Below, piece by piece: positions 3,703 to 32,248 of a stretch of 64,000 nucleotides of DNA. Source of the DNA: Streptomyces hundungensis (GTDB lineage: Bacteria > Actinomycetota > Actinomycetes > Streptomycetales > Streptomycetaceae); contig NZ_CP032698.1 in assembly GCF_003627815.1 (NCBI RefSeq), positions 2,356,001 to 2,420,000 of the forward strand, given 5' to 3'. A program made the position numbers and the translations under genes. The notes below the pieces were generated by a model. It did not search any database. It had not been told where the DNA came from and saw nothing but the letters and a program-made list of their open reading frames with translations. The stretch's first letter is position 1, and the number at the start of each line of letters is the position of its first letter.

Positions 3703-3716
3703 AAGTTGGAATGTGA
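3703..3716 (+). repeat. Family A repeat, copy 1 (AAGTTGGAATGTGA)
   Basis: This is one of ten copies of AAGTTGGRATGTGA, oriented with transcription. It is flanked by CGAAGT and ACTTCG, which can pair around it to form a small hairpin. It lies between the terminator after portal and the scaffold start. Confidence 0.85.
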
Positions 3717-3734
3717 GACTTCGGCCGATCCGAA

Positions 3735-4313
3735 ATGGATGATCACGTGGACGAGATGACGAACGACCTGACCACTACCGGACAGGGCAAGGGGGCGGAG
3801 GGCCAGATGCCCGACGCATCCGCACTTCAGGCTGAGATCGACAAGTGGAAGGCGCTGAGCCGTAAGAACGAGGACCGGTTCAAGCAGGCGTCCACAGAAC
3901 TTGAAGGCTTCCGCCAGTCACAGATGTCCGACACCGAGAAGGCCATTGAGGCCGCTCGCCAGGAGGCGCGAACCGCGGCCCTCTCCGAGGTTGGAACCAA
4001 GCTCATCAGCGCCGAGCTGCGTGCCGCTTCCTCTGCGGCCGGCGTCACGCTTCCCGGTGCTGAGTTCCTGAATCTGAACTCCTTCCTTGGCGAAGACGGA
4101 AATCCGGATTCGTCTCGCATCGAAGCGTTCGTCTCGTCGCTTCCGAAGCCGAGCAGCACGCCGCCTTACCCGCAGGATCTCGGCCTCGGTCGTCAGGGAA
4201 GCCCGGCTGCTGGCCAGCTCACCCGTGAGGATCTTGCCCGCATGTCTCCCAGGGAGATCAACGAGGCCCGCGCTGCGGGCAAGTGTGACGCTCTCCTGCG
4301 GGGCGAGGGCTGA
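3735..4313 (+). CDS. Capsid scaffolding protein
   Basis: This 192-aa protein probably guides capsid assembly and is then lost or cleaved. Residues 25-95 are rich in A, E, K, Q and R in heptad-like spacing (ALQAEIDKWKALSRKNEDRFKQ), a predicted coiled coil. The C-terminal third is Pro/Gly-rich and ends in basic helices (REINEARAAGK). The position immediately before the major capsid gene is the classical scaffold slot. The start is uncertain: ATG 3735 or the in-frame ATG at 3756 (MTNDLTTT) are both possible, and neither has a strong ribosome site. The function call rests on position plus coiled coil. Confidence 0.75.
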   Translation: MDDHVDEMTNDLTTTGQGKGAEGQMPDASALQAEIDKWKALSRKNEDRFKQASTELEGFRQSQMSDTEKAIEAARQEARTAALSEVGTKLISAELRAASSAAGVTLPGAEFLNLNSFLGEDGNPDSSRIEAFVSSLPKPSSTPPYPQDLGLGRQGSPAAGQLTREDLARMSPREINEARAAGKCDALLRGEG

Positions 4314-4332
4314 GCTCTCTTTTTTTGCCCCG

Positions 4333-4346
4333 AGGTTGGGATGTGA
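4333..4346 (+). repeat. Family A repeat, copy 2 (AGGTTGGGATGTGA)
   Basis: This variant has one mismatch to the consensus (AGG for AAG). It lies in the gap between scaffold and major capsid genes, just after a T-run and before a second hairpin terminator, and is oriented with transcription. Confidence 0.82.
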
Positions 4347-4365
4347 TACCAGCCTCTCCATCTAC

Positions 4366-4387
4366 AGGCCCTTCGGGGCCTTTTTTT
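4366..4387 (+). terminator. Hairpin with U-run before capsid gene
   Basis: AGGCCC and GGGCCT pair around a TTCG tetraloop and are followed by seven T residues, a textbook intrinsic terminator. It sits 20 bases upstream of the major capsid ATG, so it may attenuate or define the 5' end of a capsid transcript instead of ending the operon. Confidence 0.7.
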
Positions 4388-4407
4388 ATGCCCAAACGAG
4401 GTAATTT

Positions 4408-5514
4408 ATGGCTGGTAACGATTTCACTACTCAGGCAGCTTCGGGCCTTCTGGCTGGAGGCCCGGCCGGCGCCGATCCGGTCCTCAAGGGCAACGGTGTC
4501 TTTGTCCCGGAACTTTGGACTGCCCAGCTCCTCCAGGACCTTGAAGACAATCTGATCCTCGGTTCCGCTGAGATCACCAATCGGAACTACGAGGGCGAGT
4601 TCCGGCGCGAGGGCGACCGCATTCGTATCCCTCACTTCATCGACACCGTTGAGGACAAGGGCCTCATCAAGGCATACGGGGAAATCGGAGACAAGGACCA
4701 CGCAGCCCTTGAGTACATTCCGATGACCGTAGGCAAGGGGTCGAGCTTCCACATCGAGATCGACGCCCTCCACCAGCTCCAGACCAAGAGCGGCATCGAC
4801 CTGATGTCGGAGCTGGTCCGGCAGCGTGGCCGCCAGGCCGCCGTCTCCATCGACAAGATGCTTGCCCAGACCCTGCTCGCGGCCGTCGAGGGCAAGGATC
4901 TCAATGGCTCCGAGTCCGCGCCGGCCGACCTGAAGACCCTGCCTGCACTGCACGGCAAGATCGACACCGTTGAGGCGAACGCCCTGGACACCGAGATCAT
5001 CGGTGTCTATGACTACGTCGTGGCGATGCTGGAGAACCTGGATCTCAAGAACGCGCCGGACTCGCGTTACCTGTTCATCTCCCCGCGCCTGCGTTCACTG
5101 CTCCTGCGGGATGACAAGTTCATCGACACCTCCCACTGGGGCTCGAACGCCGTCATGCCGTCGGGCGTCATCGGCACCATCCTGGGTGTCCCCGTCCGCG
5201 TTTCCAACACCCTTGGTGCTGCAAAGCCGGTCAAGTCCGCGCTTGTCAAGGGCCGGCGTCACGACGAGTTCAACTCGATCGACATGTTCATGGGCGCGAC
5301 TTCCGCAACTTCGCTTGTAATCCCCTTCGCGCAGATGGAGGCGTACAAGCCCGAGAAGTCCTTCACTGACGCCATCAAGTCACGGGTGATCTACGACGCC
5401 AAGGTGATCCGCCCCGAGCAGCTTCTCGTGGCGAAGGGCGTCGAGAAGACGATCCAGGACCACAACCGAGTGGCCGTTGAGAAGAACCGCACTGTCGCTG
5501 TCGCGGCCAAGTAG
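4408..5514 (+). CDS. Major capsid protein
   Basis: This 368-aa protein is the main shell subunit. It has the composition and layout of HK97-fold coat proteins of the P22/N4gp56-like type: VFVPELWTAQLLQDLEDNLIL at the start, a loop rich in charged residues (REGDRIRIPHF), and the long spine helix LMSELVRQRGRQAAVSIDKMLAQ near residue 135. RYLFISPRLRSLLL and the segment from VIGTILGVPVRVSNTLG follow. No separate protease gene is seen nearby. The start ATG 4408 has GAGGTAA upstream. It is flanked by hairpins on both sides, consistent with a heavily expressed single gene. Confidence 0.88.
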   Translation: MAGNDFTTQAASGLLAGGPAGADPVLKGNGVFVPELWTAQLLQDLEDNLILGSAEITNRNYEGEFRREGDRIRIPHFIDTVEDKGLIKAYGEIGDKDHAALEYIPMTVGKGSSFHIEIDALHQLQTKSGIDLMSELVRQRGRQAAVSIDKMLAQTLLAAVEGKDLNGSESAPADLKTLPALHGKIDTVEANALDTEIIGVYDYVVAMLENLDLKNAPDSRYLFISPRLRSLLLRDDKFIDTSHWGSNAVMPSGVIGTILGVPVRVSNTLGAAKPVKSALVKGRRHDEFNSIDMFMGATSATSLVIPFAQMEAYKPEKSFTDAIKSRVIYDAKVIRPEQLLVAKGVEKTIQDHNRVAVEKNRTVAVAAK

Positions 5515-5532
5515 CCCCTCTTTTTTGCCTTT

Positions 5533-5546
5533 AAGTTGGGATGTGA
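5533..5546 (+). repeat. Family A repeat, copy 3 (AAGTTGGGATGTGA)
   Basis: This perfect consensus copy follows the capsid stop and a T-run. Its 3' end overlaps the likely GTG start of the next gene, and its GTTGGGA core is the only purine-rich stretch available as a ribosome site. Confidence 0.88.
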
Positions 5547-5923
5547 CATTGAGCATCGTTGTTCCAGACATTGAGGTCCGGCTTGGGCGGAAGGTCGAGG
5601 GCGACGAGAAGCCGAGGGTGGAGGCGTTCATCACGGACGCCTCCGCCCTCGTGGCGGACTACTGCGGCTCGGGCTACCGCGAGGACTCGCCCGGCATCCG
5701 GGCTGTCATCTGCGCCGAGGTCATCCGCTGGCTAGCCGTATCACCAGGCATCGTGTCGGAAAAGGTGGGAGACGTGGCCGTCGAGTTCGGCTCCTCCGCC
5801 ACCACACAGTCCCTGTCACCCGCCGCCAGGACCTCACTCAAGCGCTACCGGCGCAAGCTGGCAACCATCTCCCTACAGATCGACACCCCAGTCTGGGACG
5901 GGATCGCGATGGAGAGCCCATGA
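5543..5923 (+). CDS. Head-tail adaptor protein
   Basis: This protein of about 126 aa is the likely head-to-tail adaptor that docks under the portal. It begins with an acidic segment (VVPDIEVRLGRKVEGDEKPRVEAFI) and is followed by helices (ASALVADYCGSGYR; GIRAVICAEVIRWLAV) typical of Gp6/Gp15-type adaptors. The C-terminus is basic. The start is GTG 5543 or TTG 5549. GTG 5543 lies inside a family A repeat, so this repeat may supply the ribosome site, an unusual arrangement. It overlaps the next gene by four bases (ATGA). Confidence 0.75.
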   Translation: MTLSIVVPDIEVRLGRKVEGDEKPRVEAFITDASALVADYCGSGYREDSPGIRAVICAEVIRWLAVSPGIVSEKVGDVAVEFGSSATTQSLSPAARTSLKRYRRKLATISLQIDTPVWDGIAMESP

Positions 5924-6252
5924 AGGATCTGTTCACCGATCCGGTTCGCGTCACCCGAGCCGACATCACGCAGGACGGGCCCTACGGCAAGAAGCGCGAC
6001 TGGAAGAACCCTCGGACCGTCTTCGAAGGGCTGGCGTGCGTCCAGCCTGATCGTGCCTTTGAGGTCCGCTCCCCGGAGCGCGAGACCGCCCAGGAGCGAC
6101 TATTCGTCTACCTGCCGGCCGAGACGGACGTGGACTCCGCGGACCGCGTGGAGTACCGCGGCCTGACCTACGAGGTAGACGGCGATCCACTGGAGTGGCG
6201 CCACCTCTCCCTTCAGCACGTACGCATTCGAGCTTGGAGGGTGGAGCACTGA
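5920..6252 (+). CDS. Head-tail stopper/connector protein
   Basis: This 110-aa beta-rich protein follows the adaptor, in the usual slot of the head closure (stopper) protein. Visible features are an N-terminal MKDLFTDPVRVTRAD strand and a central ERETAQERLFVYLPAETDVDSADRVEYRG segment. The pattern V-D-x-x-D-R-V-x-x-x-G-L-x-Y-x-V is characteristic of phage head closure proteins. ATG 5920 overlaps the upstream stop by four bases, and the stop overlaps the next start by one base, indicating coupled translation. Confidence 0.75.
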   Translation: MKDLFTDPVRVTRADITQDGPYGKKRDWKNPRTVFEGLACVQPDRAFEVRSPERETAQERLFVYLPAETDVDSADRVEYRGLTYEVDGDPLEWRHLSLQHVRIRAWRVEH

Positions 6253-6581
6253 TGGCCGCCCGATTCAGGCTCGTCCTTAACGAGTACGCGCTTGCGCACG
6301 CGATGTCCTCCACCGAGACCGCAAAACTCCTGTCCAGGAAGGCTTCCGAAGTCGCTGCCATTGCGCGACACGACGCACCCAAGAACAAGAAGGGCTCGTG
6401 GAACTCCTACGCCCGCTCCCTATCCATCACGGCCTGGGAGGAAAACGGCGTCGTGCGCTCGGCAGTCCAGGCCGACCGCCACGCCCTCCTCATCGAGTAC
6501 GGCTGGCGTGATGGGGGCGGCCGGCGCCATCCGGGCAACCACGTGCTGAAGAACGCGCTGATGAAGGTGAGGGAGCCATGA
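6252..6581 (+). CDS. HK97 gp10-like minor tail/connector protein
   Basis: This 109-aa basic protein in the neck region is probably of the HK97 gp10 family. It has a helical N-terminus (MSSTETAKLLSRKASEVAAIARHDAP), then SYARSLSITAW and a strand with HALLIEYGWR before a glycine-rich GGGRRHPGNHVL ending. The latter resembles the conserved end of gp10-like proteins, where a 'GT..rP...L..A' pattern is seen. ATG 6252 overlaps the preceding TGA. The frame is open further upstream, but that stretch overlaps the previous gene and has no ribosome site. Confidence 0.7.
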   Translation: MAARFRLVLNEYALAHAMSSTETAKLLSRKASEVAAIARHDAPKNKKGSWNSYARSLSITAWEENGVVRSAVQADRHALLIEYGWRDGGGRRHPGNHVLKNALMKVREP

Positions 6582-6961
6582 GGATTGATCCTGTCGCCGT
6601 CGTCTTTGCGTTCCTGTCAGCACGTAAGGACTTGGCTGGCCACGTAACGGGCGACCTGGTCGGCCGGGAACCCAGCGAGACCACGATCTACCTGGAGCAC
6701 GCAGGCGGCCACCGCGTTGTCCGGGACCGCATGGACCGTGCCGACATCACGTACCAGGTGTACGCCGAGGACCGCTCGGTGGCGGCCGAGCTGGCGTACC
6801 GCGTGCGCGAGGCGCTGCTTGAGGAGCTGCCCGGACGGGCCGTTGGCGAGGCCCTGGTACTCGACGCGGCTGAGGCGATCAGCCCCCGCTACTTCCCTGA
6901 CACGACCTCGCGTGAGCACACCTATCAGGGAGAGGTCACGGTCTTCATCACGGATTCGTGA
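6578..6961 (+). CDS. Tail terminator/completion protein
   Basis: This 127-aa protein lies between the gp10-like gene and the major tail protein, the slot of the tail terminator that stops tube growth. It has an N-terminal helix with VAVVFAFLSAR and a DITYQVYAEDRSVAAELAYRVREALLEEL segment typical of this family. That segment is followed by a strand with TSREHTYQGEVTVFI. The pattern of a small-molecule-like ferredoxin fold is inferred. The start ATG overlaps the upstream TGA. A family A repeat follows its stop. Confidence 0.72.
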   Translation: MRIDPVAVVFAFLSARKDLAGHVTGDLVGREPSETTIYLEHAGGHRVVRDRMDRADITYQVYAEDRSVAAELAYRVREALLEELPGRAVGEALVLDAAEAISPRYFPDTTSREHTYQGEVTVFITDS

Positions 6962-6987
6962 GGGGCCGGCCCCCTCTTTCGCCCTCG

Positions 6988-7001
6988 AAGTTGGGATGTG
7001 A
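6988..7001 (+). repeat. Family A repeat, copy 4 (AAGTTGGGATGTGA)
   Basis: This perfect consensus copy lies in the 100-bp gap before the major tail gene and is oriented with transcription. The segment GGGATG just inside it can pair with CATCCC immediately downstream. Confidence 0.88.
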
Positions 7002-7015
7002 TGCATCCCTTTACG

Positions 7016-7039
7016 GCCCCCTCCCCTGGGGGCTTTTTT
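7016..7039 (+). terminator. Hairpin with U-run before major tail gene
   Basis: GCCCCC and GGGGGC pair around TCCCCT and are followed by six T residues. As with the capsid gene, the hairpin sits just upstream of a highly expressed structural gene, following a family A repeat. Confidence 0.7.
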
Positions 7040-7062
7040 CATGCCCAGACACAGGAGGCCCT

Positions 7063-7977: not shown

Positions 7978-8084
7978 CGGCCCCATCGCCGGATGCGCCC
8001 GGCCCACAACTGCACTTACCCCCGTGGCGGGGAGGGAGAAATCCCCGCCCACCCTCTTCCCCTTCCCAGTTCCTGGAGTCAGCC

Positions 8085-8787: not shown

Positions 8788-11700
8788 ATGGCTACACGCG
8801 GACGGGCACCGGTCAAGGTCGGATCGGGATACCTCGAAATCTATCCGGAACTGTCTAAGTCAGGTCTGGCAAAGATGCGCGGTGACCTGACTCGCCAGAT
8901 GACCCGCATGGGAGAGCAGGCCGCCAGGTCGTTCTCCGCATCGATCAACAAGGGCTTCTCCACGCTGGCCTCGTCTGCCTCCAAGGCAGCCAAGGCAGCC
9001 AAGGCAGCCAAGGCGGGGACGGAGAAGGAAGCTCTCGACACCTCCAACAAGTTGCGCCAGATCGAGCGTTCACTGACGCGCTTTCACGGCGAGGAGGCCG
9101 GCAAGCAGTTCCGCACCTACCGGAATCTAGCGCGGCAGCGGGAGCAGCTGGAGGAAGGCACCTCGGCGGCCACAAGGAAGGCCATCAGCGACACGGTTCG
9201 GGCAAACCGTGAGGCAACCCAGGAAACCCTTCGGGAAGCACGGCAGCAGGCGCAGGAGAAGGCCCGTCTCCAGAGGGAAGATCTGGCGGAGACTCGTCGG
9301 CGCATCCAGGCCGAGAAGACCGAGGAACGCGCCCTGGCTGCCGAGGTCCGGCAGGTCAAGGCACAGCAGGCGGCAGCCGCCCGCCAGGCCGCTGCTGAGC
9401 AGCGGGCCGCGGAGCGGGAGATGGCTGCCGCCGTGCGTCAGCGTCTGGCCGAGGAGCGCGCCGCGCACCTGGCCCGTCAGGGCTTCCTCCGGGAGGAGCT
9501 TCGTGGTCTCCAGCAGCAGCGTTCCGAGATGGCGGCCACCATCGCCGCCAACCGTCGTCAGATAGCCACGTGGGACCGCGACCATAGGACCGCAACCCGC
9601 TCGGCTAGCTCACAGTGGAAGTCGCTCGGCCAGGCCACCGAGACCTACGGCCAGAACCTTGAGCAGGTTGGCCGCTCGATCAACCAGAACCTCGTGATGC
9701 CTCTCGCTGCGGCTGCGGGCATCATGACCAAGATCGGCGCGACCTCCGCCGACATGCAGTTCTACTCCTCGGAGGGTCTTAACCGGGCAGGCTTCAACCA
9801 GAAGGAAGTCGCCAAGGGAATTCAGTCCATTCAGGACTTCGCCGTCAAGACGCCTTTCTCGCTTGAGGACATGACGGATAAATTTTCGCAAGTGGCTCGC
9901 AACTTCGAGTCATACGGCGACTCGACATCCAAGTCCCTCAAGAAGTCTGAACTGCTCATCAAGGGCATCGCTGACTATGCCGCCTCCTTCGGTGTCACGA
10001 ACCCGGAGAAGGTCAAGGGCGGCATGATGGCCGCCGACATGATGATGGACCAGGGCAAGCTGTCCACCCGCTATCTGCGCCAGTTCGTACGCGGCACCGG
10101 TATCCCGATGAACGAGATCGGGAAGATAGCCGGTTACAAGGGTGGACCCGACTTCCTCAAGGAAGTCCAGGACCCCAAGGGCGGTGTGAACTCCCGCGAC
10201 TTCTTCGACAAGTTCATCAAGGCATACCAGAAGGCTCCGGGAGTCAAGGGCTCCGCGGAGGCGCTGGGCACCGGCTCCATCGGCGGACACTTCACGGCCG
10301 TCAAGGAACAGGCCCAGTTGAACCTGGGCAAGCTGTTCGGCCAGTTCAACGAAGACACAGGCAAGTTCGAGTGGACCGAGCTGGGCCAGAACACGCACAA
10401 GCTCGCTGACCGTCTCGGAAAGCTCGTAGAGGACCCGGATTTCAAGCAACTGTCCGGGGGTCTGACCGGAAACCTTGTCCGAGCCATCAATCTGTTGATC
10501 ACAGGGTTCGAGAAGGTTCAGGGGTTCCTCAACGACCACCCGGCCATCAAGGGTCTCGTGGCCCAGGTCGTGAAACTCGCAGTGGTGCTTGGCCCCCTCG
10601 CAGTGGCGGCCGGCCTCCTTACCAAGACCTTCGGCAAGATCGCGAAGTCCCTCTCCCCACTGGTGAAGGCCGGTAGCGGAGTGCTCAAGGGAGCACGCGG
10701 CGCCTACCGGACCGGCAACCAGGCCCTCGCTGGCGTACGCGCCGGCCGGGGCAACTTCCGTGAGGCATACCGGCAGCGTCGGGCCGACTATCACGACGGC
10801 GACGACCGTTCCGCGGCTCGCCGGGGCCTGGATCGTGTGCGCGGTCAGGACAGTCGCTCGACACAGCTCACGGTGCAGACCAGTGAGGCCGAAGCGGCGC
10901 TTCGGCAAGTGGATCAGAAGATCCAGGAGATTCAGAACCGCATCCACAATCTCAACCAGGAGCGCCTGGCGCAGCTCGCGTCCGAGCTGGGTGGCGAGGG
11001 CGGCGTCCGTGGTCGGGCTAGCAGCGCCGACCGCGAGATTGATCAGGCCCGCCTCTCTGTGGGCGAGTTGAATCAGGCGCAGATTGCGGGGCTGGGACAG
11101 CGGCTGGTCGCGCTCAAGGAAACGGCGGCTACGGCCGAGAGCGGAATCAAGCAGGTCCACCAGGCCGTGAACGCCCTCAACGACGCCAAGGCGGGCATGG
11201 TCCGTCAGCAGGTGCAGTACCTCACGGACAAGGCCGACACTGCTCAACGCCGCGTCGCACAGGTGTCGTCGGAGGTCGGCAGTCTCAACGACCGCAGCCT
11301 GGGCTCGGTCCGGGAGAAGTTCTCTGGGTCGCTGACTCCGGCGATCAAGGGGTCCTACTCGCAGGCGACGGACCTTAACAACCGGATCAAGGACGTCAAC
11401 GGGCGCGGGCTCGGCTCGATCACAGGCAAGGTCCGCACGCTGGGCGACGCCCTAGAGAAGGCCGCGAGCAAGGCTGGTGGCCTTGAGGGCAAGCTCATTG
11501 CGGTCAACGAACTCACCGGCTTCGGCGGGGGCGGCGACGGCAAGGGGAAGAGCAAGGGCAAGAAGCACGCCTTGGGCGGCGTCATCCCCGGCTACGCACC
11601 GGGGGTGGACAACTACCACGCCATCCTCTCCCCCGGTGAAGCAGTTCTCCGCCCGGAGGTAGCCAACGCTCTCGGCTCCGACCGGATCAACGAGTGGAAC

Positions 11701-14592
11701 TCGGCAGCAGCTCGCGGCCGTATATCGCGGCACGCCAAGGGCAAGGCCGGCAAGGGGTCCTCCAAGTCGGGGACTTGGCCGCTGTCGGTCCTGGAAGAGA
11801 TGTACGACATCGTCAACGTCGGACCGGGTATCGGTGCTTTCACGAGCGGCATTGGAATGGCCTCCGCAGGTGCGGGAATCGGCGGCGCAACGGGCTCCAA
11901 TGTCCGGCACTGGGGTGCCCAGGCAGGCGGTGACGGTGCTGGCCGGCTGGTGAACAACCGGTTTGAGAACCTGAAGGAATTCGTCCTTCAACGCGTCCCG
12001 GACTTCCTGACCAAGGCGCCAACCGGCATTGGCAACCTGATCGGTATCGCTGCCGGAGGGATCGCGCCCACCGCTGGAAACCTCTTCTGGGAAGACATCT
12101 GGAAGGGTGACGGAAACATCGCCCAGCGTGGCCTTCAGTTCGGCACCGACTTGGCGAAATCCATCCCCCAGATCCTGAAGGATCTCGTCACCAACCTGTG
12201 GGATTCCGGCGCCGAGATCCTCGGTGCACTCGCAGACGCGATCACCGATCCGGTCGGGTTCCTCGAAGGCGCCTTCCGGTCCGTGAAGGACATGTTCACG
12301 GGCATGGTCGAACAGGTGCGCGAAATGGTCGGTCTGCTGAAGCAGATCTGGTCGTCCCCCTCCGAGTACGCAGCAGAGGTCTTCGAGTCCTTCGTCGAGC
12401 GGGCTAAAGAGCTGATGCCCAACACCCAGGGCCTCTTCGCTTTCGCGGACGGCGGGATCGTCCCCGGCTACTCGCCCGGCAACGACAGGGTTCACGCCCT
12501 GCTGTCTCCCGGCGAAGCCATCCTCCGTCCGGAGGCGGCGCGCCTTCTCGGGCACTCAACGGTTCGACAGCTCAACTCCGGCGCGAAGACCGGCTCCCTT
12601 TTCGCGCCCGCGAAGTTGGGATATGACATTTCGCTGCCGGATGCGGAGGCGTACGAGGCGGCAGTAGCCAAGATCAGGGCCGCCCTCGATTCCCTGAGCG
12701 AGGCGGTACGGGCGCACCGCGGATCGGCTATGGCCGACTGGGACCAGGTGGCGGCGAAGGTCCGTTCGGCTGTGGACGGCGACATCAGGCCCGCTCAGCA
12801 GCGCTGGATTCAGCACACGCAGGGTCCGCTTACGCAGACCGAGCGGAGCTTCCAGAGCACCAACCGAGCTGTGTGGGACGACGTTCAGTCGCAGGTCGGA
12901 TCGTCAGTCTCCTTGGCGTCCGGCTCCCTCGCTCGCCTGCGGTCGAACCTCGACAGCACCAGGCAGTTCTTCGAATCGGCCTCGGGCCGAATCCAGGAAT
13001 TGTGGCGCTCTGCCATGTCCTACGTGGACTCGTCCACCAGGAGTACGGTGAGCGGCCCGTACAACCGGGGCGCGGTCTCAATGATGTCGGCAATGGCGAA
13101 GCTGGCCGGCACTCAGGCCCCGCTCGATCCGGTGCATTTCGCGACGGGCGGTGTCGTGCCGGGCTACCAGCCTGGCGTCGATACGGTCCCGGCAATGCTC
13201 TCCAAGGGCGAAGGCATCCTTCGTCCGGAAGTCGTGCGAGCGCTCGGTGCAGAAACGATCCTGCGCTGGAACGACCAGGCCCGTAAGGGCGGCCACGTCT
13301 ACGCCAACGGCGGCGTCGTCGGCCAGAAGAGCTGGTCGGGCCAGACCGGCGGAGACTGGGTCAGCAAGCACAAGGACGACGACTACGAGGGCTACACGGC
13401 CGCCCTTGCGGCGGGTTGGAACTCCGTCGTCAAGCCGATGCTCGACGCGGTATCCGGCTCCTTCGGCATCGCGGGTGACCTCGACCGGCGGGGCTTCGAG
13501 AAGAGCCTTCCGTGGGCCGAGAAGTGGACCAAGTGGGTTGACGACCACACCTCGGGTGGCGGCCAGGTCGTGAAGGTCGCCCTGGAGGAGTTCCGCACCG
13601 AGGCCCCGATGGTGGGCGGCTCGAAGTACAGCCTCGGCACTGGTGAAGCCTGGTGTGCCGACTTCATCTCGTACGTGGTGGACAAGGCTGGGGCGAACGC
13701 GGCCTACGGGAACTCCCCCAAGGGGGCGCCGCAGAACCGCTGGCCGGCCGTTGCGACTTGGAATGCGGCCATGCGTCACGTACCCATTTCGCAGTCGCAG
13801 CCGGGCGACCTCTTGACCTACCGGGGCAATGGGCACATCAACCTCAAGACGGGCCCGGACGAGACCGTTGGCGGTAACGAATCCAACTCCCTCAAGCGGG
13901 CCCGGGGCTACTGGCGGAACGCCACAGCAGCTCTGCGACCCACGGGCGGCGCAGCCACGTCTGACGGCCCTGTTCTGAACGCATGGCCGGGCAGTGTCCC
14001 GAAGTTCTCCGGAACATTGGGTGGCGGTGTTGATGGCGAGATCGCGCAGGCCATCGCCAAGGCCATGGGCCTCACGGGTGTCAGTGGCTCCAGGTGGGCT
14101 GATGGCATCGCGACGATCATTCGTCGCGAGTCCGGAGGCAATCCGCGGGCCATCAACAACTGGGACTCCAACGCCAAGGCCGGCACGCCGTCCAAGGGCC
14201 TGACCCAGGTGATCGACCCGACCTTCCGTGCGTACCACCAGCCCGGTACGAGCTGGGACATCTTCGATCCGGTGGCGAACATCGCCGCTTCGATCAACTA
14301 CATCCGGGACCGGTACGGCGACATCGGCCGGGTACAGCAGGCCGACCCCAGCAAGCCACCGAAGGGCTATTGGACCGGAACCAACTACGCGTCCCCCGGG
14401 CTCGCCCTCGTAGGCGAGAAGGGGCCAGAGTTGATCAATTTCCGTGGTGGTGAGCGGGTCTACAACAACGGGGAAACCCGAGATCTTCTAGGTCCCCGTT
14501 ACGAGATCCACATCCATGAGGCCAGGAGCGAAGACACCACGCAGGCTGTGATTCGCGGACTCAAGTATGTGGAGACCATGTACGGCATGTAG
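8788..14592 (+). CDS. Tape measure protein with CHAP and transglycosylase domains
   Basis: This 1934-aa protein sets tail length and probably also opens the cell wall. Residues 40-270 are predicted coiled coil (R, E, Q and A-rich). A hydrophobic tape region follows (residues 290-640). Three repeats of GG-x-V/I-PGY-x-PG-x-D with LS-x-GE-x-x-LRPE start near residues 930, 1221 and 1453. A CHAP-like amidase/peptidase domain lies at about 1595-1720, with Cys near 1622 (EAWCADF) and His near 1682 (NGHINL). A lytic transglycosylase (SLT-like) domain lies at about 1755-1850 with the catalytic Glu in RRESGG. ATG 8788 has AGGAGG before it. A family A repeat lies within the reading frame at about residue 1276. 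Confidence 0.93.
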   Translation: MATRGRAPVKVGSGYLEIYPELSKSGLAKMRGDLTRQMTRMGEQAARSFSASINKGFSTLASSASKAAKAAKAAKAGTEKEALDTSNKLRQIERSLTRFHGEEAGKQFRTYRNLARQREQLEEGTSAATRKAISDTVRANREATQETLREARQQAQEKARLQREDLAETRRRIQAEKTEERALAAEVRQVKAQQAAAARQAAAEQRAAEREMAAAVRQRLAEERAAHLARQGFLREELRGLQQQRSEMAATIAANRRQIATWDRDHRTATRSASSQWKSLGQATETYGQNLEQVGRSINQNLVMPLAAAAGIMTKIGATSADMQFYSSEGLNRAGFNQKEVAKGIQSIQDFAVKTPFSLEDMTDKFSQVARNFESYGDSTSKSLKKSELLIKGIADYAASFGVTNPEKVKGGMMAADMMMDQGKLSTRYLRQFVRGTGIPMNEIGKIAGYKGGPDFLKEVQDPKGGVNSRDFFDKFIKAYQKAPGVKGSAEALGTGSIGGHFTAVKEQAQLNLGKLFGQFNEDTGKFEWTELGQNTHKLADRLGKLVEDPDFKQLSGGLTGNLVRAINLLITGFEKVQGFLNDHPAIKGLVAQVVKLAVVLGPLAVAAGLLTKTFGKIAKSLSPLVKAGSGVLKGARGAYRTGNQALAGVRAGRGNFREAYRQRRADYHDGDDRSAARRGLDRVRGQDSRSTQLTVQTSEAEAALRQVDQKIQEIQNRIHNLNQERLAQLASELGGEGGVRGRASSADREIDQARLSVGELNQAQIAGLGQRLVALKETAATAESGIKQVHQAVNALNDAKAGMVRQQVQYLTDKADTAQRRVAQVSSEVGSLNDRSLGSVREKFSGSLTPAIKGSYSQATDLNNRIKDVNGRGLGSITGKVRTLGDALEKAASKAGGLEGKLIAVNELTGFGGGGDGKGKSKGKKHALGGVIPGYAPGVDNYHAILSPGEAVLRPEVANALGSDRINEWNSAAARGRISRHAKGKAGKGSSKSGTWPLSVLEEMYDIVNVGPGIGAFTSGIGMASAGAGIGGATGSNVRHWGAQAGGDGAGRLVNNRFENLKEFVLQRVPDFLTKAPTGIGNLIGIAAGGIAPTAGNLFWEDIWKGDGNIAQRGLQFGTDLAKSIPQILKDLVTNLWDSGAEILGALADAITDPVGFLEGAFRSVKDMFTGMVEQVREMVGLLKQIWSSPSEYAAEVFESFVERAKELMPNTQGLFAFADGGIVPGYSPGNDRVHALLSPGEAILRPEAARLLGHSTVRQLNSGAKTGSLFAPAKLGYDISLPDAEAYEAAVAKIRAALDSLSEAVRAHRGSAMADWDQVAAKVRSAVDGDIRPAQQRWIQHTQGPLTQTERSFQSTNRAVWDDVQSQVGSSVSLASGSLARLRSNLDSTRQFFESASGRIQELWRSAMSYVDSSTRSTVSGPYNRGAVSMMSAMAKLAGTQAPLDPVHFATGGVVPGYQPGVDTVPAMLSKGEGILRPEVVRALGAETILRWNDQARKGGHVYANGGVVGQKSWSGQTGGDWVSKHKDDDYEGYTAALAAGWNSVVKPMLDAVSGSFGIAGDLDRRGFEKSLPWAEKWTKWVDDHTSGGGQVVKVALEEFRTEAPMVGGSKYSLGTGEAWCADFISYVVDKAGANAAYGNSPKGAPQNRWPAVATWNAAMRHVPISQSQPGDLLTYRGNGHINLKTGPDETVGGNESNSLKRARGYWRNATAALRPTGGAATSDGPVLNAWPGSVPKFSGTLGGGVDGEIAQAIAKAMGLTGVSGSRWADGIATIIRRESGGNPRAINNWDSNAKAGTPSKGLTQVIDPTFRAYHQPGTSWDIFDPVANIAASINYIRDRYGDIGRVQQADPSKPPKGYWTGTNYASPGLALVGEKGPELINFRGGERVYNNGETRDLLGPRYEIHIHEARSEDTTQAVIRGLKYVETMYGM
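12613..12626 (+). repeat. Family A repeat inside tape measure gene (AAGTTGGGATATGA)
   Basis: This copy has one mismatch (ATA for ATG) and is read as A-K-L-G-Y-D in the tape measure protein. It has the same flanking CG/ACATT bases as intergenic copy 3 (5531-5550). It sits between the second PGY repeat and a helical linker, a likely module boundary of the protein. Confidence 0.8.
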
Positions 14593-15659: not shown

Positions 15660-16997
15660 ATGGGGTACAGAATCTTCGTACGGGATGCCCCCGGACCTGA
15701 CGGCAGGATGCCTCTCCTGGGCGAGGTGGACACCTGGATCAAGCTGGACTTCACCGCCCGCTTCAACCAGCCCGGCTCCTGGCAGATGCTCGTCCGTGTC
15801 GGCACCTCGCACGAGCGTCTGCTGAAGCAGGGCCGCGGAATCGTCATCTACCAGGACGGGGTCTCAGACCCCGTCTTCAGCGGTGGCATCGACTCCTTCG
15901 AGAAGTATTGGACGGTCGAGCAACACACCGCCATGGGCTCCGTTTTCGTCGGCGGGAAGTGCGACAACCAGATTCCCTTCAACTACCTCGCCTTTCCATC
16001 CGTCTCAGGCGAGGGCACAGACGCGATGAAGCTCCGACCCATCACGAACCAATGGGAGGGCATCGACCGCAGGCCGGCCGGTGGCTCGGTGGGCCAGGCC
16101 GTGTGGGTCGAGTGTGACTTGGCGTTCGGGGCTCGTGCGCTCCCGGACCGAGCGCTCCCCGGAGTGATGGTGGGGCGTAACCCGGCACTTGGCGACGCGA
16201 TCACAGACACGCTGCGGTACGACAACCTTGGTACGAAGTTCGGTGACTGGCTCCAGGACAAGCAGACCGGCTTCCGGTTCCTCTACAACCCGGCGTCCCA
16301 GAAGATCGAACTGAAGATCACCAACTGTCGTGACCTCGCTGCGACGATCCGTTTCTCCCCCGAGCTGGGCAACATCAAGCAGTACACGTGGCAGCTCAAA
16401 GCACCGACCGTGACCCGCGCCATCGTGGCCTGCCAGGGCGAAGGCAAGGACCGGTACATCTACCAGGCCACCGACGCCGAAGCCGAGAAGGTGTGGGGCT
16501 GCGTAGTCGAGCAGTTCATCGACCGCCGCGACATCCCCCTCAAGACGGTGGACGGCAGGGTCGAGCTGGTCACACGCATCAACGACGACAAGACCGAGGA
16601 CATCGGCACCGGCCCAGACGGAAAACCATGGCCGGGCACGACGCCGGCCGAGCAGAAGTCCGCCGCTCTCAAGCACTACATCGAAGCCGTCCAAAAAGCG
16701 GCTCAGAGCGCCCTCAAGCAGGGCGAGAAGTCGGGCCACTTCCAGGTCTACCCGGTGGACACCCCGCAGTGCATGTACGGCCGGGACTACGTGGTGGGCG
16801 ACATCGTCACCGTGGAAGCCGACGGCCAGACGATCACGGACAAGGTGAATGAAGTCACCATCACCGTGGACGACGGCGGCCAGGCCGAATCTGTGACGCC
16901 GAAGGTCGGTGACCAAGGAACTGGCCAGCCCTTGAACCTTTACAAGCAGGTCTTTGAGATGCGAGAGAAGCTGCGCAAGCTGGAAGCGAGAATGTGA
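15660..16997 (+). CDS. Gp37-like tail hub/baseplate protein
   Basis: This 445-aa protein resembles the Rhodococcus phage ReqiPepy6 Gp37-like tail proteins, the hub-type component found after Dit in many actinophages. Visible features are GYRIFVRDAPGPDG at the start and FTARFNQPGSWQMLV. The block GRGIVIYQDGVSDPVFSGGI is the conserved family core, and YVVGDIVTVEADGQTITDKVNEVTITVDDGG lies near the end. The C-terminus is a short helix (QVFEMREKLRKLEARM). The ATG has GGGGGCCAC upstream, and its stop overlaps the next start (TGATG). Confidence 0.83.
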   Translation: MGYRIFVRDAPGPDGRMPLLGEVDTWIKLDFTARFNQPGSWQMLVRVGTSHERLLKQGRGIVIYQDGVSDPVFSGGIDSFEKYWTVEQHTAMGSVFVGGKCDNQIPFNYLAFPSVSGEGTDAMKLRPITNQWEGIDRRPAGGSVGQAVWVECDLAFGARALPDRALPGVMVGRNPALGDAITDTLRYDNLGTKFGDWLQDKQTGFRFLYNPASQKIELKITNCRDLAATIRFSPELGNIKQYTWQLKAPTVTRAIVACQGEGKDRYIYQATDAEAEKVWGCVVEQFIDRRDIPLKTVDGRVELVTRINDDKTEDIGTGPDGKPWPGTTPAEQKSAALKHYIEAVQKAAQSALKQGEKSGHFQVYPVDTPQCMYGRDYVVGDIVTVEADGQTITDKVNEVTITVDDGGQAESVTPKVGDQGTGQPLNLYKQVFEMREKLRKLEARM

Positions 16998-28054: not shown

Positions 28055-28100
28055 TCGTTCCTTCCTGTTGAGCTCTAGGGGTGTCCTAGAAGCTCGAAAC

Positions 28101-28130
28101 CAGGGGCTCACATCCCAACTTGAGCCCCTG
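28101..28130 (-). repeat. Family A repeat in perfect hairpin (28108-28121)
   Basis: On the minus strand the motif AAGTTGGGATGTGA is framed by 10-bp perfect arms (CAGGGGCTCA and TGAGCCCCTG), so most of the motif forms the loop. It lies between the ardA stop and the next gene and points along transcription. Confidence 0.88.
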
Positions 28131-28148
28131 ATGTCCAGCCGCTAAGCG

Positions 28149-28682
28149 TCAGTAGTTGCTCACGAAGTGCCAGGTACCGGCGCCCTCGTAGAGGGCGGTC
28201 ACCTCGCAATTGAGCAGTCGGTCAAGCGCCTCGCTACGGGCGATGGCCCGCATGTGGCCCCGGTATTGCTGCGGTAGCTCCTCCCAGAAGTGGTCTTCCT
28301 CCGCGAGGATGTAGGCCGCATAGGCGTTCACTTCCCCGCTCTCTTCTGCCACGCTCCCGATGTAGTGACCCTGGCACGTCTCCAAGAGATCTTGCGCGTC
28401 CACCTGTCCATGGAAGTGCGCGACCACCACGGCAGGGAAATCGTCCAGTGCAAGGGCAATGGCGTTGAGGTCATCCAGGGACTCGTACTCTCCGAGGTCC
28501 AGGCCCCCGAAGCCGTCGTAATCATGAATCGCGTACTCTTCCGCACCCGGTATCGGAGACCGCTCCAACATGAGCCGAATCTCATGGCCGATGCTGTCCG
28601 GGTCCTGGGTGGCGTCGATCCACTCACCGTGCAAGATGCCGTTGTTGTATGCGGCGAGGCAGGCCGCGTATATCTGCTGCAT
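28149..28682 (-). CDS. ardA: ArdA family antirestriction protein
   Basis: This 177-aa acidic protein matches ArdA: an N-terminal IYAACLAAYNNGILHGEWIDA block, then PGAEEYAIHDYDGF, LDLGEYESLDDLNAIA and a Glu/Asp-rich C-terminal half (GHYIGSVAEESGEV). ArdA proteins mimic bent B-form DNA and inhibit type I restriction enzymes. In this early operon it would protect incoming phage DNA. The length fits the family. It is followed by a family A hairpin, and the next gene upstream ends three bases away, so it is part of the leftward operon. Confidence 0.93.
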   Translation of the reverse strand: MQQIYAACLAAYNNGILHGEWIDATQDPDSIGHEIRLMLERSPIPGAEEYAIHDYDGFGGLDLGEYESLDDLNAIALALDDFPAVVVAHFHGQVDAQDLLETCQGHYIGSVAEESGEVNAYAAYILAEEDHFWEELPQQYRGHMRAIARSEALDRLLNCEVTALYEGAGTWHFVSNY

Positions 28683-28685
28683 GGG

Positions 28686-29254: not shown

Positions 29255-29259
29255 TGAGT

Positions 29260-29667
29260 TCACTCTCCGTCTCGAACGAGGGGGGCATGTCCGTGCTGAA
29301 TCGCAACGTGATTGAGGTAGGCCGCCGCACCTTCACCGAAGGTTTCAACCGCCAAGCGGTCAGCTTCATCAGAGGCATCAGACGCGCAGGGGGCCGATAC
29401 GTGGAACACAACTGGATCGTCTTGACCGCCGCTTACGTCGTCGGCTCCTGACTCCCACCAGTCCGATTCCCAGTCCATGACGACCGTGTACGGACGGTCA
29501 CCCCCCAAGCCGGCTTGGGCCTGGGCCTGGAACTCCCCCAGGAGTGCTCGCAGCAGCTCGCGATGGTCCGGGCCGCTTCCCTTCATGCGCCACTGGAACT
29601 CGTGCCACTTGATGCGTTCAATCGCATCACGGAGCACCTTGGCCGACACCGATTCATTGACCTTCAT
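29260..29667 (-). CDS. Hypothetical early protein (135 aa)
   Basis: The protein begins MKVNESVSAKVLRDAIERIKWHEFQW and contains a Gln-rich stretch (LLGEFQAQAQAGLGGD) and an acidic segment (MDWESDWWESGADDVSGG). The C-terminal part has DEADRLAVETFGEGAAAYLNHVAIQHG. It overlaps its upstream neighbour at the start codon. No function can be assigned. Confidence 0.57.
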   Translation of the reverse strand: MKVNESVSAKVLRDAIERIKWHEFQWRMKGSGPDHRELLRALLGEFQAQAQAGLGGDRPYTVVMDWESDWWESGADDVSGGQDDPVVFHVSAPCASDASDEADRLAVETFGEGAAAYLNHVAIQHGHAPLVRDGE

Positions 29668-29858
29668 CACTTGTCATCCTTGGCAGTCACCTTGTCTACG
29701 ATCGAGTCCTGGACGTCGTCCAGATACTTGGCTTCTTCTGCGGAAGAGAGCTCACCCCAGAACTCGTAGGCCGCATCCTGTGCCGCCTGTTCATCCTCCG
29801 CCTTGATTTCGAACCGGTAGGTGGCTGTCTGGTAGATCTCAATTGCATACGTCTGCAT
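29667..29858 (-). CDS. Hypothetical early protein (63 aa)
   Basis: This small acidic protein begins MQTYAIEIYQTATYRFEIKAED and ends DSIVDKVTAKDDK, with two strands and then a helix (EQAAQDAAYEFWGELSSAEEAK). The pattern resembles the small amphipathic ferredoxin-like proteins common in phage early regions. ATG 29858 is the first in-frame start after the upstream gene. It is one base from the next stop. Confidence 0.58.
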   Translation of the reverse strand: MQTYAIEIYQTATYRFEIKAEDEQAAQDAAYEFWGELSSAEEAKYLDDVQDSIVDKVTAKDDK

Positions 29859-29859
29859 G

Positions 29860-30105
29860 TCAGCGCCCCGCAATCAGTACGCCGTTATCGGTAATCCGGG
29901 CGGCGCCTGTCAGGAATCCGTTGTCATCTCCGTAGCCGTTAAAGCTCATCCAAACCCCCACGTGATTGCCCTTGACGTAGTCCACGGTTCCCCGATAAAC
30001 ACCGGCCGCACGACGGCTGTACGGGCACGCGGGAAGCGCCACCTGCACACGCTTTCCAATCCGAAACTCCTTCATGTCAATCTCTGTGATGTGTCGAGTC
30101 GTCAT
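29860..30105 (-). CDS. Hypothetical SH3-like early protein (81 aa)
   Basis: This protein reads MTTRHITEIDMKEFRIGKRVQVALPACPYSRRAAG and has a strand-rich core (VYRGTVDYVKGNHVGVWMSFNGYGDD). The KRV-Q-V-A and YRGTVDYVKG pattern resembles KOW/SH3 folds. GTG 30108 and ATG 30105 both fit the ribosome site AAAGGTGAGG. A family A hairpin lies 55 bases upstream. Confidence 0.58.
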   Translation of the reverse strand: MTTRHITEIDMKEFRIGKRVQVALPACPYSRRAAGVYRGTVDYVKGNHVGVWMSFNGYGDDNGFLTGAARITDNGVLIAGR

Positions 30106-30159
30106 CACGCCTCACCTTTCCTGTGTTCACTCTCTTCGGTTCTGAGAGCCCATAGACAA

Positions 30160-30181
30160 GCTCACATTCCAACTTGTGAGC
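30160..30181 (-). repeat. Family A repeat in hairpin (30162-30175)
   Basis: On the minus strand the motif reads AAGTTGGAATGTGA, framed by the arms GCTCACA and TGTGAGC (7 bp). It lies between the 74-aa gene and the 81-aa gene, in the direction of transcription. Confidence 0.87.
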
Positions 30182-30195
30182 CTGCCTAAAGTCGC

Positions 30196-30420
30196 TCAGT
30201 CTTTGATCCCACGGACTCGCATCGTGTGATGCGGGTCGCTCAGCTCCCAATCACCGTGGCCGTCGCAGTACGCCGTAGACAGCCAACGGCGGTCGCCATA
30301 GCGCTCCGTATCAATCCAGCGAGTTGCCACGTTCATACAGCCAAGCGTTCGGCAACCGATACGGCCATCCAAGAGCGCCCCCGTGTGCTGGATCCCGCCC
30401 CTGTTCGTCTGCTTTCCCAT
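30196..30420 (-). CDS. Hypothetical early protein (74 aa)
   Basis: This protein begins MGKQTNRGGIQHTGALLDGRIGC and has Cys and His residues spaced as a possible zinc site (C23, C28, then YCDGHGD). The ATG lies one base before the upstream stop, a tight junction. Unknown function; zinc binding is inferred only from residues. Confidence 0.55.
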   Translation of the reverse strand: MGKQTNRGGIQHTGALLDGRIGCRTLGCMNVATRWIDTERYGDRRWLSTAYCDGHGDWELSDPHHTMRVRGIKD

Positions 30421-30421
30421 G

Positions 30422-31213
30422 TCAGATACCCAGCTTTGCGCCGCCGTGCGGCCAGCGCACCGGATAGCACGTCTCACAGCCGCGCTGTGTATCTCGGAGA
30501 TCAGACACCGTCGGGTAGAGGCTCATGTGCCGGAGTCCATCAATGTAGTTCGGAATGCATTCACATTCCCCCGCTTGCTCACTCTCAGCACAGTCCCAGC
30601 AAACACGATCACTCAGGTATTCACCCGTCTTGATCCATGCAGAACAGTCCATGCACCGACTGTATTCAAGCTTCGCCAAAGCTTCTTCAACGTCGCAGAA
30701 TGAACAGTTCGAGCAATACGGCACTTCATCCATTTCCCGGATCACGTCGGAGGCTTCTACCCCTTCGGGCAGGGTGTAGAGATCATCAATCAGAGAACAA
30801 GCGTTATCCCATTCAAGTTCGGACATTCGCTCATCATCAAGGATTGGGTAATCTGCGAGGCTGCTTCCGATGCTGCGGGCAATCTCGCGCCCTGCACGGT
30901 TCGATGCATCCCACACGATCCAGCCGCGCCATTCGAACGTTTCAACACCGGCACTCTTGAAGGCGGCGCGAGTAGCTTCCGCATTGACCCGGATTCGAGT
31001 CTCACGGCAGTCGCAGTTGTAGTACCAGCCATCGGTCCAGTCTTCCAATGGTTCTCCGGTTCCGTCGTCAACCAATCCGAAACCTGCCCACGCGAAGTCA
31101 CGGGCGGCGTCCGCCATGTCTTCCAGTACGCTCCTAGAGCTGTATCCCCTATCGCGCTCCGCAAATTCCTTGGCGAAGTCGCTGAACTTAATGTCAATGA
31201 TTGCGCCACTCAT
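30422..31213 (-). CDS. Cys-rich early protein with multiple knuckles
   Basis: This 263-aa acidic protein has an N-terminal helical domain (MSGAIIDIKFSDFAKEFAERD) and a WIVWDASNRAGREIARSIG segment. The C-terminal third carries many CxxC/CxC pairs: CSNCSFC, CMDC, CWDC, CEC and CETC. This suggests two or three zinc sites. The codon use is less GC-biased than in the structural genes, as in the other genes at this end of the prophage. No family is recognised. It may be the largest member of the Cys-rich early set. Confidence 0.6.
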   Translation of the reverse strand: MSGAIIDIKFSDFAKEFAERDRGYSSRSVLEDMADAARDFAWAGFGLVDDGTGEPLEDWTDGWYYNCDCRETRIRVNAEATRAAFKSAGVETFEWRGWIVWDASNRAGREIARSIGSSLADYPILDDERMSELEWDNACSLIDDLYTLPEGVEASDVIREMDEVPYCSNCSFCDVEEALAKLEYSRCMDCSAWIKTGEYLSDRVCWDCAESEQAGECECIPNYIDGLRHMSLYPTVSDLRDTQRGCETCYPVRWPHGGAKLGI

Positions 31214-31260
31214 TGCATTTACCTTTCGCTTGACTTCCGCGCCACTAGCGCGCCACAGAA

Positions 31261-31286
31261 AGGCTCACATTCCAACTTGTGAGCCT
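31261..31286 (-). repeat. Family A repeat in 9-bp hairpin (31265-31278)
   Basis: On the minus strand the motif AAGTTGGAATGTGA is framed by the perfect 9-bp arms AGGCTCACA and TGTGAGCCT. It lies between a 36-aa zinc-ribbon gene and the 263-aa Cys-rich gene and points along transcription. Confidence 0.88.
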
Positions 31287-31298
31287 GCCTGAAGCGTC

Positions 31299-31409
31299 CT
31301 AGAGGGCGTCAAGAATGCCCATGAACTCGCAGGTCGCGCAGAGTACGCGTTCCCCTACCAGCCATACAAACCGCGTCTGACCACACTTTTCACACGTTTC
31401 GATTGACAT
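31299..31409 (-). CDS. Tiny zinc-ribbon protein (36 aa)
   Basis: This short frame reads MSIETCEKCGQTRFVWLVGE then RVLCATCEFMGILDAL. Two CxxC pairs 16 residues apart form a complete minimal zinc ribbon. Its ATG overlaps the upstream stop (TAATG), and GGGAGAG is placed as a ribosome site. The tight coupling and intact ligands make it a likely real gene despite its size. Function unknown. Confidence 0.62.
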   Translation of the reverse strand: MSIETCEKCGQTRFVWLVGERVLCATCEFMGILDAL

Positions 31410-31570
31410 TACTCTCCCTCGTTCTTAATCAGCGCGAACCCTTTGCGTTCACGATTGACGCCACCCATGCACGCGTCACACCGGCCATGCATCTTTCTCG
31501 AATCAGACCACGGGCCTATGTATCGAGCCTGACGTTGAATACCCCACATCTCACATACGGCGCACTGCAT
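31409..31570 (-). CDS. Tiny zinc-ribbon protein (53 aa)
   Basis: This frame reads MQCAVCEMWGIQRQARYIGPW and continues SDSRKMHGRCDACMGGVNRE to KNEGE. It has C3-x2-C6 and C32-x2-C35, again a minimal zinc ribbon, here in the first gene of the leftward operon. A GAAAGG ribosome site lies about ten bases upstream. Together with the 36-aa neighbour and the Cys-rich 263-aa protein it forms a cluster of zinc-type early proteins. Confidence 0.62.
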   Translation of the reverse strand: MQCAVCEMWGIQRQARYIGPWSDSRKMHGRCDACMGGVNRERKGFALIKNEGE

Positions 31571-31591
31571 CCTGTATGCCTTTCTCTCGCG

Positions 31592-31612
31592 GTATCAGAA
31601 CCTCTCTGATAC
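31592..31612 (-). promoter_or_regulatory. 8-bp palindromic hairpin in leader of early operon
   Basis: GTATCAGA and TCTGATAC are perfect arms around a five-base loop, 22 bases upstream of the first early gene. It could be an operator or a leader RNA hairpin. Confidence 0.55.
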
Positions 31613-31966
31613 TCACCCCCACACAGCCACTCTCAGACGCTTAGAGACACGCTGAGCCCCGTTACTCATGGCTTAGGGGCTACGCGCTGGATGCGTCGTG
31701 TTGATTGGGTGTGTGAGAGTCAATCTCAGATGGTTTCGCTAGTCATACCTAGCCACCTTTCCACTCTCCTATGGCGTGCTCCGTTGCTTCGCTTCCCAGC
31801 AATGCACGGGCGCTCTAGGGTCATCCCTTGTCTATTCGCTTCAAAGGGTGTGTTCAGGCTTTGGTATTAGCGGCGTGCCGGTCACTGCCGGGCCGTTGCA
31901 ACCCCCACACGGCGCTTTGACGCCTCTCCGTGCGGTTCGTGCTTGGTGTTGCTAAGGGTTTGGGTT

Positions 31967-31983
31967 CGGCCCTTAGAGGGCCG
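31967..31983. other. Short perfect hairpin in control region
   Basis: CGGCCCT and AGGGCCG pair around TAG. It is one of several compact stems in the non-coding control region; a further one (CTCGC/GCGAG around TTA) lies at 32,033-32,045. No U-run follows. Confidence 0.45.
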
Positions 31984-32097
31984 TTCCTATCGCCGTTCGC
32001 ATCCCTGGTGTGCTGATCTCCCGTTCCGCATTCTCGCTTAGCGAGTGGTACTAGGGGCGCTTTCCTGTGGGGCGTTCCTTGCGATGACCTAAAGGTG

Positions 32098-32111
32098 TCA
32101 CATCCCAACTT
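32098..32111 (-). repeat. Family A repeat in control region (AAGTTGGGATGTGA)
   Basis: A perfect consensus copy on the minus strand, without flanking stem, followed by CACC. It lies upstream of the leftward early operon. Confidence 0.85.
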
Positions 32112-32234
32112 GAAGCGCAACCCCACGCCGAGACATCTCGAAGCGACTCCGTGGACTCGAACCTTTGATCTCAATGGAGACGCACGCGTGCCATATGGCA
32201 CCCAAAGAGTCAATATCCAAAACTGTTGCATGTG

Positions 32235-32248
32235 TCACATTCCAACCT
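32235..32248 (-). repeat. Family A repeat in control region (AGGTTGGAATGTGA)
   Basis: This is the outermost early copy, with one mismatch. GTGACA at its end is followed after 17 bases by TATTGA, a weak promoter-like pair for the leftward operon that other copies do not share. Confidence 0.8.

Follow-up and report, generated by a model that had tools for sequence, protein, structure and literature searches.

Putative operators and stoperators of an L5/R4-type immunity repressor with a new DNA specificity in a prophage of Streptomyces hundungensis

Introduction

The closest described relatives of the system treated here are the immunity systems of the cluster A mycobacteriophages L5 and TipsytheTRex, in which, according to PMC9283540 and PMC6550527, a homologous repressor is accompanied by about 25 asymmetric sites lying along transcription. 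How a bound repressor stops an elongating polymerase in one direction is posed as a central open question in PMC9283540, and a purely steric block is argued against in the cited stoperator paper because reversed sites fail. Two further systems bear a likeness to the present one: the R4-type system of the BD Streptomyces phages, with a Streptomyces host and repeated sites placed mostly in gaps (PMC10276819), and that of the cluster CA Rhodococcus phages, with many co-directional sites (PMC5721134 and PMC13313380); these papers, together with PMC10310618, served as the literature for known site families. Here we describe a short repeat in a prophage of Streptomyces hundungensis, in a window of 64,000 nucleotides (NZ_CP032698.1, positions 2,356,001 to 2,420,000; the window starts at C1:2356001, and negative positions lie to its left), and in two related prophages of other Streptomyces genomes, G146 and G025.

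The repeats very probably serve an immunity repressor of the L5/R4 type that the prophage itself encodes, as its operators and stoperators, and their specificity is new. This is supported because (i) the prophage encodes an L5-type repressor, (ii) each site is asymmetric, and most lie between genes and run with transcription, and (iii) the site family and close relatives of the repressor occur together. The sequence-only reading from which we started had likened the layout to the stoperators of L5, and on the same three points this likeness proved right in kind. Judged from its sequence, the system appears to belong to the L5/R4 repressor-stoperator family; its kind is already known from mycobacterial phages, and what is new is the DNA address and an unusual T-rich lead-in.

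Results

The repeat is short and asymmetric, occurs in many copies across the prophage and is its first-ranked de novo family by plain word count. A motif search of the window recovered all ten copies that had been reported, each at its coordinate and strand; seven are exact matches to AAGTTGGRATGTGA, and those at 4333, 12613 and 32235 carry one mismatch. The reported division of these copies into seven between genes, two in the control region and one inside a gene also held. No exact match arose in 100 dinucleotide-preserving shuffles of the window (largest count 0), and matches with three mismatches, as many as chance predicts, were also found at 16984 and 27058. The predicted copies are:

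3703..3716, plus strand: putative stoperator AAGTTGGAATGTGA, portal/scaffold gap (motif search, weight matrix; same gap in G146)
4333..4346, plus strand: putative stoperator AGGTTGGGATGTGA, scaffold/capsid gap (same gap in G146 and G025)
5533..5546, plus strand: putative stoperator between the capsid gene and the following head gene, directly ahead of a likely TTG start (motif search, related prophages)
6988..7001, plus strand: putative stoperator before the major tail protein gene (motif search, weight matrix, prophage comparison)
12613..12626, plus strand: putative stoperator inside the tape-measure gene (weight matrix, three-prophage comparison)
28108..28121, minus strand: putative stoperator between the ArdA-like gene and the next gene, in a hairpin by eye (motif search)
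30162..30175, minus strand: putative stoperator, intergenic, right arm (motif search, prophage comparison)
31265..31278, minus strand: putative stoperator, intergenic, right arm (motif search, weight matrix)
32098..32111, minus strand: putative operator/stoperator, right-end control region (motif search, weight matrix)
32235..32248, minus strand: putative operator/stoperator, right-end control region (motif search, weight matrix)

In the whole genome of 8,393,044 bases, ARGTTGGRATGTGA matched 20 times with at most one mismatch, and 19 of these matches fell within C1:2333522-2388248, so that the host chromosome does not carry a similar number; the sole match beyond the prophage (4275539) has one mismatch, all 14 exact matches lie inside the prophage, and the reversed pattern gave no match in the whole genome at the same tolerance. 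The site-bearing stretch, 55 kb long, corresponds to the prophage and extends about 23 kb to the left of the window, which covers its right part only, and for this reason the family exceeds the ten copies first reported. Scanning the 58 kb examined with a weight matrix derived from the sites gave 23 of them (the weakest, at window -14688, scoring 15.2 bits), with the consensus A-AGTTGGRATGTGA-CAY and a conserved block of about 17 bp. A gene with a serine-recombinase domain (PF07508; C1:2332112-2333356), the integrase, lies to the left of the first copies. We failed to find an att core by exact words, the longest shared word being the repeat motif itself. A text search of the literature with three pieces of the motif gave no phage-related title among the matches listed.

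With gene borders taken from our own simple gene caller, 18 of the 23 sites were intergenic, three lay at gene ends and two inside genes; 21 of them fell in the 19.5% of the stretch that is non-coding or within 30 nt of a gene end (P 2e-13). The caller put the site at 5533 at a gene end, and in the related prophages the next gene starts just after it. Eighteen sites share the direction of both neighbours and none opposes both, the other five being in gaps called divergent, so that the two orientations are far from equally frequent. Three of the five divergent-gap sites lead into an operon on the same strand, two before the repressor and one before the exonuclease operon. The genes that frame the sites in the window include:

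2142..3671, plus strand: portal gene, late operon context
8788..14592, plus strand: tape-measure gene holding the intragenic copy, named from size and place, without a family search
28149..28682, minus strand: ArdA-like antirestriction gene, right-arm context

The gene of the candidate repressor occupies C1:2354485-2354997 on the minus strand (window -1515..-1003), close to the left edge of the window but outside it, and separates the replication arm from the late operon; its product has 170 amino acids, or 160 if a second start is used. The protein matched the TipsytheTRex immunity repressor (PDB 7r6r/7tz1) by sequence with an E value of 7.5e-4 and PHROG 357, 'transcriptional repressor', with 1.4e-8. 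Tblastn (E up to 0.01) detected relatives in 82 phage records (Mycobacterium 44, Rhodococcus 25, Streptomyces 13), and among the matches listed (60 of the 82) many are annotated as immunity or transcriptional repressors. For an AlphaFold model made from ten homologues, the top Foldseek hit, and the only one below 1e-3, was 7r6r_A (E 2.1e-4, probability 1.00). The homology to L5 gp71 and the TipsytheTRex repressor, which comprise a helix-turn-helix (HTH) and a Stoperator domain, thus consists of an alignment over most of the length and a fold match of modest quality, and the protein appears from these comparisons to be a relative of that immunity repressor. The database proteins found for its family number ten; eight bear a name from their source, in each case 'hypothetical protein', and the remaining two include the prophage's own protein.

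The site family and the closest repressors were found in the same genomes. Eight of 295 Streptomyces genomes carry the exact motif, with 14 copies in the present genome, 13 in G146, 9 in G025 and one in each of five others. Relatives of the repressor (E 1e-6) were detected in 11 of 392 genomes, the closest being its own (99% identity), that of G146 (79%) and that of G025 (56%); the three many-copy genomes among the 295 are thus the three with the closest repressors among the 392. Of the other eight repressor-bearing genomes, seven were in the motif search, which gave one exact copy in G167 and none in the remaining six; G303, the eighth, lay outside the 295. When the sites in gaps common to the three prophages were compared (42 pairs in 16 groups), identity averaged 0.90 in the core, a value inflated because the compared sites were chosen by matching, and the upstream and downstream flanks averaged 0.52 and 0.44, respectively. 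In the tape-measure gene, the intragenic copy is 1980 nt away from the gene end in the present prophage, 1981 nt in G146 and 1983 nt in G025. It is translated as KLGYDI in the present prophage, as KLESDT in G025 and, in another frame, as TSWDVT in G146; the change of frame makes the copy hard to explain by protein conservation, and it is probably selected as DNA.

The sites of the known systems resemble the present one in arrangement and differ in letters. TipsytheTRex has CTTGACANCCACC along transcription at 24 of 25 sites and shares the register TTGnnA with the present site, which differs in its letters from the sites of L5 and TipsytheTRex and is conserved over a longer block, of about 17 bp. 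In CosmicSans (cluster CA), CTTGACAATAGACA lies along transcription at all 28 sites when up to three mismatches are allowed; it fits TTGnnAnnnGACA as the present site does, with other letters at the variable positions and a slight T lead-in only. The repressors of R4 and phiHau3 are annotated 'similar to L5 gp71' and are 31% and 27% identical, respectively, to the prophage repressor over the aligned part. The R4-type system was reportedly first described by Smith et al. in 2013. The de novo families of R4 (ACTGTGCAAGTGT) and phiHau3 (TGTGATAGACTGA) differ from the present motif, and a specificity shared with them was therefore rejected; neither ranked first in one whole-genome word ranking, and that of phiHau3 ranked first in another search.

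Success, Ibantik and Ponzi, Streptomyces phages that are the nearest relatives of the head genes, have a similar gene layout and a distant L5-type repressor. None of the three carries the exact present motif, the best match being a single one in Ibantik with one mismatch. The sites of Ibantik form a separate directional family, GGTTGnYACGAGACAT, preceded by the same T-rich lead-in. The de novo search yielded AGTTGCCAAGAGG in G259, a stretch around a repressor relative in a Streptomyces genome, four to five copies of a family in G303, and no clear site family in G035a, G035b, G024, G240, G031 or G291. In the mycobacteriophages DarthPhader (CTTGACACTCACT) and Salz (CTTGACATCCACC), all 24 sites each lie along transcription, and with a slightly different Salz word one of 25 lies against it. 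The families of Ibantik, phiHau3, R4 and DarthPhader were picked by hand from below the first rank of whole-genome word counts. TTGnnAnnnGACA fits the present site, Ibantik and CosmicSans, TTGnnA fits G259, TipsytheTRex, DarthPhader and Salz, and the sites of phiHau3 and R4 fit neither; the shared register is suggestive only, since it was chosen by eye. The earlier claim that the motif differs from those known is thus right for its letters but not for the TTGnnA register, which is common to the cluster A and cluster CA sites.

A T-rich stretch precedes the sites at a fixed distance. In an alignment of 67 partly orthologous sites (22 own, 23 from G146, 22 from G025; two weak ones left out, window -14688 with 15.2 bits and G025 52292 with 14.9 bits), T reached 28-52% at -16 to -9 and about 20% further out; 63% of the sites had G at -8 and 85% had A at -1, and C stood near 50% from -7 to -4. 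A run of four Ts within -30..-6 was found at 22% of the 67 sites and at 1.1% of 265 control positions, which are repeated draws from fewer gaps. The mean number of Ts in the nine positions -17..-9 was 3.73 for the same 22 own sites against 1.78 in the own-flank control (p 0.0007). Three sets that were not used for the discovery gave 4.86 against 1.96 (Ibantik, p 0.003), 3.79 against 2.18 (G259, p 0.002) and 2.67 against 1.19 (phiHau3, p 0.0005), and R4 (2.12), TipsytheTRex (2.62) and CosmicSans (2.61) lay, weakly, above all four shifted windows. The sets of Ibantik, G259, phiHau3 and R4 are pattern matches in either orientation, and that of TipsytheTRex (24 sites) omits one site against transcription. 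The lead-ins of the plus-strand copies in the window are:

3687..3695, plus strand: T-rich lead-in of copy 3703, 7 of 9 T, with a terminator-like hairpin (3670-3686) immediately before it
4317..4325, plus strand: T-rich lead-in of copy 4333, 7 of 9 T
5517..5525, plus strand: T-rich lead-in of copy 5533, 6 of 9 T
6972..6980, plus strand: T-rich lead-in of copy 6988, 4 of 9 T
12597..12605, plus strand: T-rich lead-in of the tape-measure copy, 4 of 9 T

In the window, few Ts (0-3 of 9) precede the copies of the right arm. Strong in the present prophage and weak in TipsytheTRex, the lead-in is absent in two of the three mycobacteriophages compared, DarthPhader (1.71 T per 9 nt, controls 1.08-1.83) and Salz (1.88, controls 1.29-1.92), and we rejected the idea that a T-tract is universal to such systems. 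A general composite terminator of hairpin plus T-tract was rejected as well, as the hairpin energy just upstream of the T-tract showed no difference from the flank control (Wilcoxon p 0.41 for the own sites, 0.69 for Ibantik, 0.67 for G259 and 0.75 for phiHau3).

Several other elements were noticed, one of which is a candidate phage promoter or control element common to different stoperator types:

32663..32683, minus strand: second conserved element CTCACTAnnnATGTCGGnGTC; other copy at C1:2355173-2355186 (minus strand), just upstream of the repressor gene, left of the window

Its core, ACTAnnnATGTCGG, is present exactly twice in the genome, once ahead of the repressor gene and once where the right arm begins. 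G146 has both as exact copies, and G025 has one exact copy and one with two mismatches; in Success, Ponzi, G035a, G035b, G303 and G031, copies with 0-2 mismatches precede the repressor relative by about 150-220 nt, and the exact pattern was found in 29 IMG/VR stretches. Repeats of the forms TGAATGAA and TTAGTTCATTC cluster at the right end (window 32346-32790), with scattered copies elsewhere, and similar repeats occur near both genome ends of Ibantik and also inside that genome; they possibly lie near packaging ends. A tRNA-like T-loop (ggttcgagtcc) in the control region, at about window 32150-32180 on the minus strand, was not called by ARAGORN. By eye, the copy at 28108-28121 sits in an inverted repeat, CAGGGGCTCA ... 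TGAGCCCCTG, which is conserved across the three prophages. In the left arm, a plus-strand pair (L142:8114-9363, window -2886..-1637) comprises an MmyB-like HTH regulator (PF17765) and a thioesterase-like gene, the latter labelled from its look alone.

Discussion

The sites, their orientation and location, their confinement to the prophage, their co-occurrence with the repressor family and the homology of the repressor were observed. What we predict from them comprises binding, silencing, a block of elongation and the aid of the T-rich lead-in to the release of a halted polymerase. In the lysogen, a monomer of the repressor would occupy each of about two dozen predicted sites. At the sites of the control regions the bound repressor would block initiation, and at those in gaps between co-transcribed genes, as well as in the tape-measure gene, it would stop an RNA polymerase arriving from upstream, the release of which may be helped by the T-rich lead-in.

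We tentatively suggest, as a possibility falling somewhat short of an even chance, that the stoperator of Streptomyces phages is a composite of a phase-locked T-rich stretch (-17..-9) and the repressor site, at which the repressor triggers hairpin-independent termination instead of acting as a mere roadblock. In such a composite the T-rich stretch would be followed, often with G at -8, a C-rich part at -7..-4 and A at -1, by the repressor site. If the polymerase halted by the repressor has its RNA end near -9, its RNA-DNA hybrid would be weak, rich in U and about as long as the T stretch, a geometry that we infer, and with the repressor as the trigger, direction would matter. The excerpts of PMC9283540 and PMC6550527 hold no mention of a T-rich stretch or a pause at the sites.

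Some observations weigh against assigning the sites to the L5-type repressor. With a mean pLDDT of 66.3, the AlphaFold model is of mediocre quality, and its superposition on 7r6r is poor (TM 0.45, rmsd 17). Success and Ponzi, which carry distant relatives of the repressor, yielded weak candidate families, namely two in Success (9 sites, all along transcription; and 14 sites, 9 along and 5 against) and one in Ponzi (9 sites, 6 along), and the R4 family is partly co-directional (13 along, 7 against and 5 divergent of 25). At the left end of the prophage, the sites at -22478 and -22398 lead only into a doubtful open reading frame of 93 nt, while the larger flanking genes (integrase and epimerase-like) run the opposite way; if the doubtful frame is discounted, both sites would count as against both neighbours. 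To these can be added the inflated core identity mentioned above and a second HTH protein, MmyB-like, which is kept near the repressor in G146 and G025 and could in principle bind.

It is improbable that the sites are bound by another phage DNA-binding protein such as this MmyB-like regulator (L142:8114-8959). The regulator is indeed conserved in the same three prophages (75% identity in G146, 56% in G025). Nevertheless, tblastn (E 1e-3) over 16 stretches found it only in the present prophage, G146, G025 and G035a; the stretches of Ibantik, G259 and phiHau3 lack it and yet have L5-type repressors with directional site families of their own, R4 having a weaker one, and G035a has the relative while no such site family was found there de novo. 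Slightly less probable still is an RNA-level element acting in the transcript, in antitermination, in processing or as a start-associated sequence. The sites are co-directional, the right-arm copies 28108, 30162 and 31265 lie in hairpins by eye, and terminator-like hairpins adjoin 3703, 4333 and 6988, albeit the 12 hairpins in 17 kb are no excess over the 11.1 expected from shuffles. The flanks beyond the core, the CAY and the T-rich lead-in carry almost no information; no hairpin enrichment was found just upstream in the present prophage, Ibantik, G259 or phiHau3, nor any Rfam match near the window sites at the gathering threshold; and the presence of sites follows a family of DNA-binding repressors. 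Start-associated sequences of cluster K stand at a fixed short distance from the start codon and include a ribosome-binding part. The earlier comparison with them was not borne out and this identity was rejected, because the distance from site to next called start varies widely, from 16 nt to over 100 nt.

The least probable reading that we considered takes the sites as promoter elements, of a sigma type or for a phage RNA polymerase, as they are compact, directional and mostly upstream of genes. At a strict threshold, none of 22 sites (window -14688 left out) had a -35/-10 pair within a distance of 100 nt, no fixed second block follows the sites, and terminator-like hairpins lie 13-19 nt downstream of 4333 and 6988. 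A search for a single-subunit RNA polymerase gene gave no match, and the search's own control also had no match anywhere.

If the sites are operators and stoperators of the L5/R4-type repressor, as we consider very likely, the prophage adds to the known system a further Streptomyces lineage with a new DNA address and a repressor family that has been left unannotated. Judging from the tape-measure copy, a site may be retained within a gene for its DNA, and the phase-locked T-rich lead-in may provide a concrete sequence handle on the question of the one-direction block in Streptomyces phages.

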